Shown: piece after piece, positions 5,189-36,608 of the stretch | Layout of the letters: each line of letters starts with the position of its first letter | Numbering within the stretch: position 1 is the first letter of the stretch | The notes under the pieces: generated by a model | What the model saw: the letters and a program-made list of their open reading frames with translations, nothing else | Told to the model about the DNA's origin: nothing | Database searches by the model: none | Source: Bacillota bacterium | Lineage (GTDB): Bacteria > Bacillota > Clostridia > Peptostreptococcales > Anaerovoracaceae | Length of the DNA: 64,000 nucleotides | Direction of reading: 5' to 3' | Assembly (NCBI GenBank): GCA_017405645.1 | Contig: JAFQZZ010000022.1 | Coordinates: 1 to 64,000 of the forward strand | Made by a program: the position numbers and the translations under genes

Positions 5189-5650
5189 CTATTCCGCCCG
5201 CAGGTTTTCCGCCAGGTATTCCGCCGCGGTCCGCACGCACTGAACGCAGATCAGCTTCTTCGGACCCGCTTCCTTCAGCTGTTCCTCCGTGGCGTTCGCC
5301 TTCAGTTCCTTCTCCTGCTTCAGGAGTTCACCGCACATAATGCTGCCCCGCTTTTCCGCAAAGGACTCGCCGGCTTCCTTGATCCGGGCGTAAGTGTCCA
5401 GTTTGGTCCGGCCTTCCGTCAGCTTCCCGTCGCTGTTGTCCAGCCCAAGGGTCATGAACATCCCGGTCACGGCGCCGCATTCATCCATGTAGCCGCTCAT
5501 GCCCAGGCCAAAGCCCTCCGCCAGTTTGAAAGCCGTCACCTCATCCAGGCCGTACAGGTCGCAGAACGCGCACAGGATCGCCTGGGAGCAGTTAAAACCG
5601 TTGGTCGTGAAAATATCGACCGCTTTCTGGATCCGTTCTTCTTTCGTCAT
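5189..5650 (-). CDS. C_GCAxxG_C_C family protein (putative redox-active Cys-rich protein)
   Basis: The 153-residue protein belongs to the family named after its cysteine pattern: NGFNCSQAILCAFCDLYGL near residue 20, DECGAVTGMFMTLGL near 60, an isolated SIMCGEL and a final CVQCV pair. The spacing C..GCxxG..C..C suggests metal or cluster binding or redox activity, but no biochemical function is established for the family. There is no signal peptide. A good site GGAGGATGAAAAG precedes the ATG. It sits between tmk and yhbY, both 11-15 nt away, so it is likely co-transcribed with them; this gives no clear functional hint. Confidence 0.85.
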   Translation of the reverse strand: MTKEERIQKAVDIFTTNGFNCSQAILCAFCDLYGLDEVTAFKLAEGFGLGMSGYMDECGAVTGMFMTLGLDNSDGKLTEGRTKLDTYARIKEAGESFAEKRGSIMCGELLKQEKELKANATEEQLKEAGPKKLICVQCVRTAAEYLAENLRAE

Positions 5651-5665
5651 CTTTTCATCCTCCGT

Positions 5666-6355
5666 TCAAATGATTCCCCGTTTTTCCAATACCTCCAGGA
5701 TCTTCTGATGGATCTCCCGGCTCGTCAGCATCTTGCCGGATGGGTCTCCGCACTCCACGTACACCATTTCATCGAATTCCGAGCACATCTCCCGGTAAAT
5801 GCTGCCCACGTTTTTCTGCAGCACCAGGTTCTGCTCGTGGACGTCCGAACCGCCCTCCAGGTAATCCCGGTCTCCGCCGGTCCGGGCCTCCGTCAGCTTC
5901 TTCTCCGAAAAAGCCCGGGGCACCCCCAGAACCATGCACAGGTCCGGGATCGGGATCTCGCCGGAGGCGAACTCCGTGTCCACGATCCACCGGTACAGCT
6001 TTTCCTTTTCCCGGGGTTTGTTCATCAGCTTGGCGCACTGGTAGGCGATGTTGGAATAGGCGTACCGGTCCATCAGCACGATATCGTATTTTTCGATCCA
6101 CTTCCGCACCAGGTCCGCATTGGCGATCCGGTCCCGGGCAAAAAGGAATGCCACGTAATAGGGGTCCACCTCTTCCGCGCCGCCCAGGTCTCCCCGCAGG
6201 AAGGCGTTGATGGCGCGGCCGTAAAAGCCTTTCCCGGAGGGGAAATGGAACTGTTTCACGCTGAGTCCCCGGTCTTTCAGGTATTTCGTCAGTTTCCGGG
6301 TCTGGGTGGATTTGCCGGACCCGTCGGTTCCTTCAATAACAATGAATTTACCCAT
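5666..6355 (-). CDS. tmk: Thymidylate kinase
   Basis: The 229-residue protein phosphorylates dTMP to dTDP. It has the Walker A loop GTDGSGKST (residues 9-17), the DRYAYSNIAYQ motif (the DRY/H of TMP kinases, about residue 97) that binds the nucleotide, and a lid region with EARTGGDRDYLEGGSDVHE. It is slightly longer than the usual 205-215 residues. It follows the phosphodiesterase gene by 15 nt and, with thyA/folA only 2.5 kb away, supplies the next step of dTTP synthesis. ATG follows AAGGATGGAAAC. Confidence 0.93.
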   Translation of the reverse strand: MGKFIVIEGTDGSGKSTQTRKLTKYLKDRGLSVKQFHFPSGKGFYGRAINAFLRGDLGGAEEVDPYYVAFLFARDRIANADLVRKWIEKYDIVLMDRYAYSNIAYQCAKLMNKPREKEKLYRWIVDTEFASGEIPIPDLCMVLGVPRAFSEKKLTEARTGGDRDYLEGGSDVHEQNLVLQKNVGSIYREMCSEFDEMVYVECGDPSGKMLTSREIHQKILEVLEKRGII

Positions 6356-33458: not shown

Positions 33459-34406
33459 ATGAGTGAAAACCTTACTGCCGAAAAGAAAAAAATGTCCGGA
33501 AAATCATTCGGGGTGCTGATGGCCGTCATTGCCATCGCCATCTGGTCCGGAAATTTTGTCATATCCAGGGGGCTGAGCGGATCCTACGCTCCCTCGGTCA
33601 TCGCCTTCTGCCGGTGGACCCTGGCGCTGATCATCATGTTCCCCCTGGCCATCCGCCATGTGATCGCCGACTGGGACAAGATCCTGAAGCAGAAGTGGCT
33701 GATCATCGCCTGCGGCGTGACCGGCACCGGGCTGTACAACCTGCTGTGCTACTGGGCCGGCCGGACCACCAGCGCCACAAACCTGAGCCTGATCGCCACC
33801 TCCAGCCCGATCTTCACCATCCTCATCATGCGAATCCTCTTCAAGGAAAAGGTGACCCCGAAACGGGTGATGGGCGTTATCCTGGCGATCCTGGGGGTCG
33901 CATTCCTGTTAGTGAAGGGCGACATTCACGTGCTGATGACCCTGGACTTCACCATCGGCGACATCCTGATCCTCATTGCGACATTCCTGTGGTCGGTCTA
34001 TACGATCCTGAATAAATACAAGGACCCGGAGGTGTCCACCTGGTCCTTCATCTTCTGCGGCTTCGTGGTGGCCTTCCTGGTGACCCTGCCTTTCTTCATC
34101 GGGCACTGCGCGATGTACGGCTTCCCGCAGTTTGAGCGGGTCGGCGTGGCCTGCTTCTTCTACCTGGCCATCGGCTGTTGCATCATTTCCTTCATGCTGT
34201 GGAACAAGGCGGTCACCCTCATCGGCGCCACCAACGCCTCGATCATCTACAACACCATCCCGGTGTTCAGCTGCATCATCGCTTTCCTGGTGCTGGGCGA
34301 AGCCATCCTGCCGGTCCAGATTGTCGCCATCATCGTCATCTTCGTCGGCGTCACCATGGCCCAGGACTCCATCAAGATCGGGAAGAAAAAGGAGATTGGA
34401 GATTGA
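33459..34406 (+). CDS. DMT superfamily (EamA) transporter
   Basis: The 315-residue protein has ten hydrophobic helices arranged as two EamA repeats (about 18-150 and 165-305), e.g. LMAVIAIAIWSGNFVISRGL and DILILIATFLWSVYTILNK. EamA proteins are exporters or importers of small metabolites, often amino acids. Its divergent pairing with dpaL suggests transport of an amino acid such as diaminopropionate or a product, but this is only context. AAAGGAG precedes the ATG. The Lys-rich C-terminus is cytoplasmic. Confidence 0.87.
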   Translation: MSENLTAEKKKMSGKSFGVLMAVIAIAIWSGNFVISRGLSGSYAPSVIAFCRWTLALIIMFPLAIRHVIADWDKILKQKWLIIACGVTGTGLYNLLCYWAGRTTSATNLSLIATSSPIFTILIMRILFKEKVTPKRVMGVILAILGVAFLLVKGDIHVLMTLDFTIGDILILIATFLWSVYTILNKYKDPEVSTWSFIFCGFVVAFLVTLPFFIGHCAMYGFPQFERVGVACFFYLAIGCCIISFMLWNKAVTLIGATNASIIYNTIPVFSCIIAFLVLGEAILPVQIVAIIVIFVGVTMAQDSIKIGKKKEIGD

Positions 34407-34420
34407 AGACTCTAGAGAAA

Positions 34421-34448
34421 AAAACGGGAGCGCTGCTCCCGTTTTTTT
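34421..34448 (+). terminator. Terminator of the DMT transporter gene
   Basis: AAAACGGGAGC-GCT-GCTCCCGTTTTTTT: a perfect 11-bp stem followed by a T-run, 15 nt after the stop. Confidence 0.92.
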
Positions 34449-34487
34449 ACTTTTCAGACCATACTTCAGGTGGCTCTCGCGAGCCGC

Positions 34488-34841
34488 CCGCCGTCTTTAA
34501 GGGGCGCTTTTACTTTGCAACCGAGTAAAAGCGCCATGATCTGGGCAGCGGAAAGGACAATAGAAAACTAATGTGGTTTTCTCAAATTATTTTCTATTCT
34601 CATTCCCTTCCTCAAAGCCCAAATAGAAAAAACAAGCGAAATCCAAGTTTCTTATCCTATACCTTATAGGATAAGGCCGCATCGATTGGCGAGTTTCGTC
34701 CTATTTCTTTTCGGCAACGATTAGTTGGTGAAGCTTTTTATAGGACAAAGAATGAAATACAAGGGTTTTCGTCCTAACTGACTTACAAAACGACATAAAG
34801 AACTAGGATAAAAATAGCCAAAAGCTTGATTCTTATCCTAG
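34488..34841. repeat. Long structured direct repeat, left copy
   Basis: This 354-nt AT-rich block recurs at 35796-36153 in the same orientation; by eye they agree at roughly three quarters or more of positions. No coding frame is evident. It holds a perfect 12-bp hairpin GGCGCTTTTACT/AGTAAAAGCGCC (34503-34535), a 75-nt stretch identical in both copies (34590-34664), the hairpin CTTATCCTATA/TATAGGATAAG (34651-34675) and a terminal hairpin CTAGGATAA/TTATCCTAG (34803-34841). TCCTA/TAGGA motifs recur in both orientations. Just before it lies another hairpin (34470-34489). The rest of the 34449-34949 gap holds only the downstream gene's promoter. Confidence 0.9.
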
Positions 34842-34877
34842 GTTCGACAAATAAACTCTATAACCCCGGGAAGGTCC

Positions 34878-34907
34878 TTGACGGAAGCAGGTTTATAATT
34901 GTATAAT
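34878..34907 (+). promoter_or_regulatory. Promoter of the nuclease-like gene
   Basis: TTGACG (34878-34883), 18-nt spacer, perfect TATAAT (34902-34907). It lies between the left repeat and the gene, leaving a leader of about 36 nt. Confidence 0.75.
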
Positions 34908-34949
34908 ATTAACATAAATGTTTATAATATTCTGTAGAAGGGGTAGGAT

Positions 34950-35741
34950 GTGGATAAAACAAGACGAGCCCTCGTCCGAAGAAGCCGGATATTGGAACAA
35001 ACCATTCAATCGAAGAGCCTTGACCTGGCCAAAGCGCCGGATGGTACCTTGCGAATTGATCAAAGCAGTGGGATTCCCAGGTTTTATCTTCGTTTGAATC
35101 CCAAAGACACCACCGGAAAGTATATCGCCAGGTCCGCCGGCGAACTCCCCGCCCTGCTGGCTCAGAAAAAATACGATCAGATTGTTTTGAAAACCGCAGA
35201 GAAAGAGCTCCTGGCTCTGCGGGAATATGAAAGAATTCTTCAGGAAAGTGCCATGGAACGCATTTACGAAGGGCTGGATCCCGTTCGAAAGAGCCTGGTC
35301 ACGCCCATCATTCCGACAACCGATGATTTTGTCCGGGACTGGCTGAATGTGTCCTATGAAGGCAAAGCTTTTCCTGAAGATTCGCCCGGATTCTTCACGG
35401 ACAAGGGAGAACTGGTTCGATCCAAGACCGAAGTGATTCTCTCCAATCATTTCGAAAAACACAACATCCCCTACCGTTATGAATATCCGATTGTACTGGA
35501 TGGAATCACTTTTTACCCGGATTACTTCCTCCTGAACGTCCGAACGCGAAAAGAATACATCTGGGACCATTTTGGCATGATGGATGACCCCGCTTATTTG
35601 GAGAACGCCCTGCGAAAAATCGAAATCTACGAGCGAAACGGCATCTTCCCGGGAGACAAACTTATTATCACATTCGAAACCGCCGGGAAGCCATTGGACA
35701 CCCGGATCGTTGATTTGCTGATACGGAAGCACCTGATTTGA
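34950..35741 (+). CDS. PD-(D/E)XK-nuclease-like protein of unknown function, flanked by long direct repeats
   Basis: The 263-residue protein starts with GTG (34950) after AAGGGGTAGG; the next upstream in-frame codon but one is a stop, so no earlier start exists. Residues 1-110 are mainly helical and charged. Residues about 155-245 resemble a restriction-endonuclease-like fold: Glu161 in RSKTE, PYRYEYPIVLDGITFYPDY with Pro190-Asp191, Glu202 in RKEYIWDHFGMMDD, and Lys223 in ALRKIEIYERNG, ending in LIITFETAGKPLD. The classical E-x-K lysine is Ile204 here, so Lys223 may have taken its place. I recall similar uncharacterised proteins in gut clostridia. No transposase, methylase or antitoxin is adjacent. 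Function is unknown. Confidence 0.75.
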   Translation: MDKTRRALVRRSRILEQTIQSKSLDLAKAPDGTLRIDQSSGIPRFYLRLNPKDTTGKYIARSAGELPALLAQKKYDQIVLKTAEKELLALREYERILQESAMERIYEGLDPVRKSLVTPIIPTTDDFVRDWLNVSYEGKAFPEDSPGFFTDKGELVRSKTEVILSNHFEKHNIPYRYEYPIVLDGITFYPDYFLLNVRTRKEYIWDHFGMMDDPAYLENALRKIEIYERNGIFPGDKLIITFETAGKPLDTRIVDLLIRKHLI

Positions 35742-35795
35742 TGAGTCCAAACAGCTCCGGTACGGCGCTGACATCCTCCTCCCAAATCACGGACT

Positions 35796-36153
35796 CCGCC
35801 GTCTTTAAGGGGCGCTTTTACTTTGTAACCGAGTAAAAGCGCTATAATCCGAGCGGCGGGCGGGAAGGACAGTAGAAAATAAATGTGGTTTCCTGAAACA
35901 GTTTTCTATTCTCATTCCCTTCCTCAAAGCCCAAATAGAAAAAACAAGCGAAATCCAAGTTTCTTATCCTATACCTAATAGGATAAGGCCGCGTTGATTG
36001 GCAAGTTTCGTCCTATTTCTCTTCAGCAAAGATTCATTGGAGAAGTTTTTTCTAGGATATAAACACAAGTTATAAGTGCTTTCATCCTATGCGACCTGCA
36101 AAACCAAATGAAAAACTAGGATAAAAACAGCTCAAGGTCTGATTCTATCCTAG
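35796..36153. repeat. Long structured direct repeat, right copy
   Basis: Second copy of the 34488-34841 repeat. The first hairpin (35811-35843) keeps all twelve pairs although its last base changed from C to T (G-C became G-U). The identical 75-nt core is at 35903-35977. The middle hairpin (35964-35988) loses one pair but keeps ten, and the terminal hairpin is CTAGGATA/TATCCTAG (36116-36153). The 3' third has diverged most, while the TCCTA/TAGGA motifs remain. No gene is visible between 35742 and 36226 apart from this repeat. Confidence 0.9.
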
Positions 36154-36226
36154 TCTTAATAATTATTGCTATGTGGAGTGGATTAACAGTCCCATCGGGA
36201 GCGATGAGCCAACTATCATCTATTCT

Positions 36227-36592
36227 TCAGACTATTTTGTATCCGGCCGCTTCCAGGGCTTTCATTCCGGCATCGAACTGCTCCGCCTTCATCAGCACAT
36301 AGTCCGTGTTGTAAGTGGAGACCGCGAAGATCCCGATGCCGTTTTCCGCCAGGATCCCGGAGATCTTCGATAAAATGCCGATCAGGGAAAAATCCAGCAC
36401 TCCCTGGATCCGGAAGCCCCGCCAGCCGTCTTCCCGCTCCAGCGTGTTTGCCGGCGTGTCTTCCGTCCGGCACACCAGGGAAAACTCCTCGTCTGTCCTC
36501 CCGATGAAATAAAACTCCCGGCTCAGGTCGTAATCCCGCTCCGAGGCCACTTTGCACACCGTCAGGCTGTGCTCCAGTTTTTTCAGTTCCAT
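36227..36592 (-). CDS. ACT domain protein
   Basis: The 121-residue protein contains ACT-type ligand-binding folds. The C-terminal half (GVLDFSLIGILSKISGILAENGIGIFAVSTYNTDYVLM) is a clear ACT signature, usually for sensing amino acids. The N-terminal half (HSLTVCKVASERDYDLSREFYFIGRTDEEFSLVC) resembles the CASTOR/ACT_7 class of double ACT proteins. No enzymatic domain is present, so it may be a free-standing sensor. It follows the DUF4298 gene by 16 nt, and ends about 70 nt from the right repeat. Confidence 0.8.
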   Translation of the reverse strand: MELKKLEHSLTVCKVASERDYDLSREFYFIGRTDEEFSLVCRTEDTPANTLEREDGWRGFRIQGVLDFSLIGILSKISGILAENGIGIFAVSTYNTDYVLMKAEQFDAGMKALEAAGYKIV

Positions 36593-36608
36593 GCGCTTCT
36601 CCTTTCTC

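Follow-up and report, generated by a model that had tools for sequence, protein, structure and literature searches.

A predicted Vsr/TnsA-like nuclease gene accompanied by helically phased arrays of locus-specific DNA words in Clostridia and other bacteria

Introduction

Short DNA words repeated in helix register upstream of the gene for the protein that binds them, in an autoregulatory arrangement, are a feature of plasmid partition arrays such as parC/ParR and the omega heptads. A nuclease may also control its own gene, as when I-TevI binds an operator over its own promoter without cleaving it, and so represses itself (PMC2988022). In REPtrons, a tnpA-REP/RAYT gene is flanked by its cognate palindromes in alternating orientation, some of which are concentrated beside the gene (PMC8266576), and in the type III toxin–antitoxin systems toxIN and cptIN, a nuclease gene is immediately preceded by tandem repeats (PMC8860590). 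Here, we describe a nuclease locus with flanking repeats in a 64,000-nt stretch of DNA (contig JAFQZZ010000022.1, positions 1 to 64,000, hereafter "the window") from a Bacillota bacterium of the family Anaerovoracaceae (GCA_017405645.1). The locus recalls each of these systems in part. With the REPtrons it shares cognate palindromes on either side of a nuclease-type gene, with toxIN and cptIN tandem repeats just ahead of such a gene, and, by analogy, with I-TevI predicted binding sites upstream of their own gene. Helix-register short words upstream of a gene are also found in partition arrays.

In the window, a single gene for a predicted PD-(D/E)XK nuclease stands between two arrays of a short repeated word. 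Homologous genes in three phyla are mostly preceded by an array of their own, with other words, and the words are spaced by whole turns of the DNA helix. Sequence comparisons suggest that the repeats are phased binding sites in double-stranded DNA, probably for the cognate nuclease, and that they act as an operator or tether within a mobile single-gene unit.

Results

Arrays upstream of homologous nuclease genes

Homologues of the window nuclease were found in 15 of 61 relatives. Of 391 genomes from the class, 29 encoded homologues, frequently several each. A scan of 84,980 species genomes yielded 338 relatives, of which the best 80, from Lachnospiraceae and other Clostridia, Treponema, and Fibrobacter, were taken. 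Approximately 70% of the homologous genes in Clostridia, Treponema, and Fibrobacter had a repeat array directly upstream. A self-similarity score of at least 26 was reached by 50 of 69 upstream flanks, 15 of 78 downstream flanks, and 24 of 476 control windows. Furthermore, at least three hairpins with one identical 8-mer stem were present in 22 of 59 upstream flanks and in 1 of 235 control windows, this one control window being a solo array itself (locus L091, see below). The array words are locus-specific, 7–10 bp long, and usually arranged in inverted pairs; examples are GCCCTGCC (L025, 17 units of 52 bp), CCACTTA (L066), ACTACGGG (L110), and CATATGG (L117), and the arrays at L042, L072, and L073 are imperfect or consist of direct words. 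The last word lies at a median distance of 81 bp from the start codon (lower quartile, 47 bp). No conserved partner gene was found near these loci beyond local synteny. In viral contigs, there were eight distant relatives of the nuclease domain, and no word in their flanks occurred in more than five copies.

Helical phasing of the words

The commonest 7-mer in each upstream flank was chosen automatically, and the distances between its copies in the same orientation were measured. These distances clustered at 52–53, 63–64, 74, 84–85, 95, 106, and 128 bp. A period of 10.65 bp fitted best across 82 distances taken from 50 loci that differ in word (R = 0.84, p ~ 5e-26; the Rayleigh p-values assume independent loci, and orthologous loci are not fully independent). 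The same procedure gave R = 0.16 in the downstream flanks and 0.08–0.12 in the control windows, and 41 further, previously unused loci, evaluated at the preset period of 10.65 bp, gave R = 0.59 (p ~ 6e-8). Where the step changed inside one array (84 to 106, 64 to 105, and 73 to 94 bp), it also changed by whole turns (p ~ 8e-5), and the phasing is therefore not mere inheritance of one repeat length. At one locus (L074), ten 37-bp direct repeats, containing GCCGATA in reverse, occur downstream of the nuclease at 5625–5930; these are not whole turns apart, and the upstream array of the same locus is phased.

Co-variation of word and nuclease

The similarity of the words was correlated with the similarity of the nucleases (Mantel r = 0.31; null maximum, 0.12). 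The word was shared by 87% of the pairs with protein identity above 80%, and sharing was at the background level below 50% identity. Words also persisted where whole arrays and spacers no longer aligned (L072 and L051). The paralogues of a single genome used distinct words, namely GAATACA, TACCCCA, and GGATGCA in G117 and AGTAGAA, AGTATAC, GTACTAA, and GGGATGA in G314. In the host flanks, the words were neither avoided nor enriched (31 observed, 31.3 expected), and elsewhere in the genome they exceeded expectation by about twofold at most. The L066 array was not dispersed in its own genome, and a scan of the genome of the window (1.42 Mb) detected arrays of this kind only on contigs C2, C5, and C30. 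Judging from sequence, the simplest reader of the word would be the nuclease itself.

The nuclease protein

No Pfam or NCBIfam family was found for the full protein, a PDB sequence search gave no match, and matches in PHROGs were weak and limited to phage endonucleases and resolvases. The initial annotation, a first reading of the window without database searches, had called the protein PD-(D/E)XK-like. This is borne out by an AlphaFold model (pLDDT 93), in which the C-terminal domain is of the PD-(D/E)XK type, and by fold comparison. The VIA-align neighbours of the C-terminal half were the Vsr/EDxHD homing endonuclease I-Bth0305I (3r3p; Z 8.8), TnsA (8.5), Bax1 (8.3), Vsr (6.9), and VRR-NUC (6.9), with alignments to the structures 3r3p, 1t0f, 8gy8, 1cw0, and 4qbn (Z 6.9–8.8). 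Foldseek alone was weak (best E, 0.01), and the nearest predicted viral structures include homing endonucleases and resolvases. The conserved residues are E161, P190–D191, D206–H207 (E-H in the homologues), and K223. Because the acidic and E-H motif columns (E, PD, and E-H) are invariant across 62 homologues, the nuclease activity seems to be under selection. Fold and motif together place the modelled protein in the Vsr/TnsA/EDxHD branch of the PD-(D/E)XK superfamily. In its N-terminal part, two long helices surround a small beta unit. The PADLOC candidate PDC-S68 has the same nuclease domain in the C-terminal ~110 residues of its proteins (24 of 24 members match; best E, 4e-38), and the likeness is confined to this domain, the PDC-S68 proteins being ~1,200 amino acids long.

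The locus in the window

The initial annotation had described two direct repeats of about 355 nt on either side of one gene, and both repeats were confirmed, with 84% identity over 359 aligned columns (E ~ 2e-95). The gene between them is an open reading frame (ORF) for 263 amino acids with a GTG start, and an ORF survey of the window agreed with the annotation that there is no transposase, integrase, reverse transcriptase, or methylase near it. The AT-richness ascribed to the block applies to the repeats, with a GC content of 0.39–0.42 against 0.53–0.60 in the surroundings, and less so to the gene itself (~0.49). The coordinates are given in Table 1.

The word in the repeats is TAGGAYAA, with the weaker variant TAGAAAA (variants picked by eye), and each repeat contains five inverted pairs. 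The offset from forward to reverse word within a pair is constant at 35–36 bp, and steps in the same orientation are 63, 43, 74, and 63/64 bp, corresponding to 6, 4, 7, and 6 helical turns (left array: forward 63, 43, 74, and 63 bp, reverse 63, 44, 73, and 64 bp; right array: 63, 43, 74, and 64 bp). That arrays stand on both sides of the gene appears to stem from a local duplication.

Table 1. Positions in the window of the nuclease locus and its neighbours
Feature	Position	Strand	Remarks
Inserted block, entire	34453..36239	.	Edges approximate; from alignment to same-genus genome G001
Left (upstream) array copy	34488..34841	+	84% identity to right copy
Right (downstream) array copy	35796..36153	+	84% identity to left copy
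Nuclease gene, PD-(D/E)XK (Vsr/TnsA/EDxHD-like, predicted), 263 aa	34950..35741	+	ORF, homologue alignment, model, fold comparison
Left array, five inverted word pairs	34561..34840	.	Forward starts 34561, 34624, 34667, 34741, 34804; reverse ends 34596, 34659, 34703, 34776, 34840
Right array, five inverted word pairs	35873..36152	.	Forward starts 35873, 35936, 35979, 36053, 36117; reverse ends 35908, 35971, 36015, 36089, 36152
Perfect hairpin GGCGCTTTTACT-N9-AGTAAAAGCGCC, start of left copy	34503..34535	.	Second copy 35811-35842
EamA-type transporter, upstream neighbour (left insertion flank)	33459..34406	+	94% protein identity in G001, G002
Downstream neighbour (right insertion flank), presumably an ACT-domain-like protein	36227..36592	-	ORF; adjoins EamA gene in G001

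Gain and loss of the unit

In G001, a genome from the same genus, the sequences corresponding to window positions 33480–34452 and 36240–36607 align 30 bp apart (L133 1504–2487 and 2518–2885), with the EamA gene and the ACT-domain-like gene adjacent and the intervening 1.8 kb absent. With a same-genus species lacking the block at the corresponding site, it is, as aligned, an insertion in the window or else was lost in G001, and two genomes are compatible with either direction. A third genome of the genus (G002, L062) encodes, between dpaL and EamA, a nuclease that is 55% identical and accompanied by an array of its own. This position is across the EamA gene from the block in the window, and the window itself has no insert there. 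No clean target-site duplication was definable at the block edges in the comparison of the window with G001; a possible imperfect one is TTCAGACCAT (~34454) and TTCAGACTAT (~36225).

Among the other loci, one Lachnospiraceae group carries array–nuclease copies between comEC and holA (L051, L055, L058, L065, L069, L072, L073, and L091), two genes that are commonly neighbours in Firmicutes. In a second group, the unit follows guaA and is likewise stable over genus-level distances (the names comEC, holA, and guaA were read from the sequence and not from a family search). Other copies, that of the window included, have been gained or lost among congeners. Gain and loss affect the unit as one block, and it seems to move on occasion and to be inherited thereafter.

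The initial annotation had proposed a search for further copies of the repeat, solo repeats, and empty sites, and an inspection of homologous genes for the same flanking repeats. The repeat sequence itself recurs in the ~1.43-Mb genome only as a 35-bp piece on contig C30, which speaks against two insertions of a dispersed repeat, one of the origins suggested for the locus. Read literally, this is among the outcomes that the initial annotation had named as refuting its reading; the architecture itself, however, reappears in three phyla with other sequences. The G001 site is empty as described above, and solo arrays were found (C30 and L091). The homologues do have flanking arrays, but normally only one, directly upstream, with words that differ at each locus. 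Consequently, the suggestion of a mobile or LTR-like element survives in its first half, given the empty same-genus site, the patchy and multicopy distribution, and the solo arrays, whereas its two-sided, LTR-like half is unsupported, and an LTR-type element was also rejected for lack of a reverse transcriptase or integrase.

One of the solo arrays lies in the genome of the window (C30:51028–51276; L009 1529–1776) between peptidase-like and uvrB-like genes, with no nuclease gene nearby. It is phased, with the word GCAAG at steps of 64, 84, and 63, and it contains the hairpin core TTTTACT-N9-AGTAAAA of the window repeats. The other phased solo array (L091 8284–8677; word TACCATGA) lies ahead of a gene for a NUDIX hydrolase; the related locus L051 lacks this stretch. 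The genome of the window also encodes a second full-length nuclease (C5:47951–49084; L007), 44% identical to the first, with its own upstream array of the word TAGTACA. A truncated nuclease remnant with a 58-amino-acid frame (C10:37159–37314; L008 2160–2315), which has a TTTTTACT/AGTAAAAA hairpin close by, looks like a decayed copy. A long CRISPR-like array with a 66-nt period and more than 30 repeats is located on the same contig (C10:63173–65800).

Discussion

We propose that the locus is a two-part unit, in which a Vsr/TnsA-like PD-(D/E)XK nuclease is encoded next to an array of sites that it would bind in double-stranded DNA. Words placed whole helical turns apart would bring the bound proteins onto one face of the DNA. 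The nuclease, probably dimerised via its N-terminal helices, would bind the array, and the resulting phased nucleoprotein complex would repress its own gene and store spare enzyme. Such self-repression would be analogous to that of I-TevI on its uncleavable operator, and because the arrays end a median of 81 bp before the start codon, the bound protein would cover the expected promoter region. What was observed with regard to I-TevI-like autorepression is the position of the array and the co-variation of word and protein. We assign a probability of slightly below one half (about 0.48) to a self-binding nuclease whose phased array serves autorepression and enzyme tethering and which is gained and lost with it as a block. 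The arrays with their phasing and private words, the co-variation of word and protein, the invariant catalytic residues, and the presence–absence polymorphism are observed, whereas the binder, the repression, and the eventual target of cleavage are what we infer.

Several observations weigh against this proposal. No clear array is present in about a quarter to a third of the loci; where arrays occur, they hold 8–17 copies, which exceeds the needs of an operator, and the solo arrays without a nuclease (C30 and L091) fit pure autoregulation poorly. A fold search with the N-terminal part returned coiled-coil-like chance matches only and no known DNA-binding fold. The partial correlation with the word was 0.16 for the N-terminal part and 0.10 for the nuclease domain, values that are not clearly different, and the co-variation could partly reflect linkage. 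Among the more distant homologues of the relatives set, the phasing was weaker (R = 0.31, p = 0.07), and promoter-like sites were not concentrated in or near the arrays in a promoter scan that was uninformative.

Autorepression alone explains neither the solo arrays nor the arrays with as many as 17 units, and the main rival is therefore a role of the array as an element end or in homing. The array would then be the site of cutting or synapsis by the nuclease, a recombination site and not an operator, and the unit would spread by homing or transposition-like repair. This would suit a nuclease domain resembling those of homing endonucleases, TnsA, and resolvases, a multicopy and patchy distribution over three phyla that includes solo arrays, and a block that is present or absent among congeners, with the G002 version across the same EamA gene. 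However, the arrays are mostly one-sided and not at both ends, there is neither a conserved partner gene such as a transposase nor a clean target-site duplication, several loci (e.g., comEC–holA) are syntenic over genus-level distances, and the words are neither enriched nor avoided elsewhere in the host. In homing, an empty allele is cut and the element copied in by repair, and what was observed here is presence or absence at one site. We consider this explanation unlikely, although it is the strongest of the alternatives. It is considerably less probable that a different host protein, nucleoid-associated or regulatory, binds the words and that the nuclease gene simply lies beside them. Phased sites are typical of regulators generally, and solo arrays precede ordinary genes, such as the NUDIX gene at L091, but the words are private to each nuclease, differ among paralogues in one cell, and track nuclease similarity, no second conserved gene lies nearby, and the words are not in excess elsewhere in the genome beyond the twofold noted above.

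Slightly more doubtful again is the idea that the arrays are functionless tandem repeats, which replication slippage or the nuclease itself would create, with a spacing that reflects the duplication process. Tandem duplication clearly operates, as near-identical units of 52–96 bp attest; yet word positions are 98% conserved while the adjoining columns vary, spacing changes within arrays are whole turns, and the words outlast alignable spacers. At the bottom of our ranking is a transcribed array whose hairpins act as RNA, either as a type III toxin–antitoxin-like antitoxin or as a guide or scaffold RNA. A nuclease acting with a structured RNA had been suggested by the initial annotation and was the reading that we first favoured for its fold z-scores, the predicted RNA folding of the window repeats exceeding that of shuffled sequences (z = -4.7 and -4.0, the former for the left copy); tandem repeats upstream of a nuclease gene are also what toxIN has (PMC8860590). 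Inverted word pairs, however, yield such folding anyway. Non-Watson–Crick cells in the array stems occurred in the random ratio (GU 25, AC 23, other 105), and in columns adjoining the word, compensation was seen for 36 of the 181 deviations from the most frequent pair, which is the chance rate, with GU at 33 and AC at 25; as their seeds favour paired cells, these tests limit RNA pairing but do not exclude it. A simple scan detected a terminator-like signal between array and gene at 1 of 62 loci, an Rfam search of the block gave chance matches only, with nothing at or near the gathering score, and loops and spacers lack the uniqueness expected of guide sequences. The pairing tests, together with a spacing quantised by the DNA helix, led us to drop the RNA interpretation.

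Measured against described systems, the proposed nuclease–array unit resembles homing endonucleases such as I-Bth0305I in its catalytic domain and as a single-gene mobile unit. Unlike homing endonucleases, it is associated with no intron or intein, has large phased arrays of private words, and occurs in several orthogonal copies per genome. REPtrons were rejected on two counts: their enzyme is a HuH/Y1 protein acting on single-stranded DNA with a GTAG motif, whereas the fold here is PD-(D/E)XK, and REPs are mostly dispersed genome-wide, whereas the arrays in the genome of the window are restricted to three contigs, and the words here are helically phased. Type III toxin–antitoxin systems were set aside because 61 of 62 loci lack a terminator-like signal between array and gene, the RNA-pairing signal is absent, the spacing follows the DNA helix, and the PD-(D/E)XK-like nuclease is unrelated in fold to ToxN. 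In comparison with partition arrays, the gene encodes a nuclease and not a partition adaptor, the locus is chromosomal, and the paired inverted words are 5–12 turns apart. A guide array of the CRISPR-Cas or TIGR type was rejected because the spacers repeat along with the unit and no conserved partner gene is present, and restriction–modification because a conserved partner gene and avoidance of the word are both lacking.

Because LTR elements, type III toxin–antitoxin systems, REPtrons, CRISPR or guide arrays, and restriction–modification systems each fail at a defining feature, we rate the architecture as new in kind; its parts, a nuclease fold and operator arrays, are of known kinds, and their combination is what we could match to no described system. 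The initial annotation's view of the locus as undescribed is supported to the extent that no description of such loci was found in full-text searches of open-access papers, and a prior description elsewhere is possible.

A broader and more tentative proposal, which we hold with less confidence than that for the single unit, is that these loci form a class of widespread, mutually orthogonal nuclease–array pairs. Several such pairs may be present per cell, each nuclease being held and controlled by its own phased array as a DNA counterpart of an RNA antitoxin, and, as selfish or defensive units, they may pass from phylum to phylum within gut communities. If our reading of the locus is right, many gut and rumen bacteria would carry several copies of an unnamed kind of locus with a readable code of private DNA words. 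The specificity of a nuclease family would become testable from sequence, and a set of orthogonal, sequence-specific DNA binders would be on offer. It would also raise the question of what cells gain by tethering nucleases to phased arrays.
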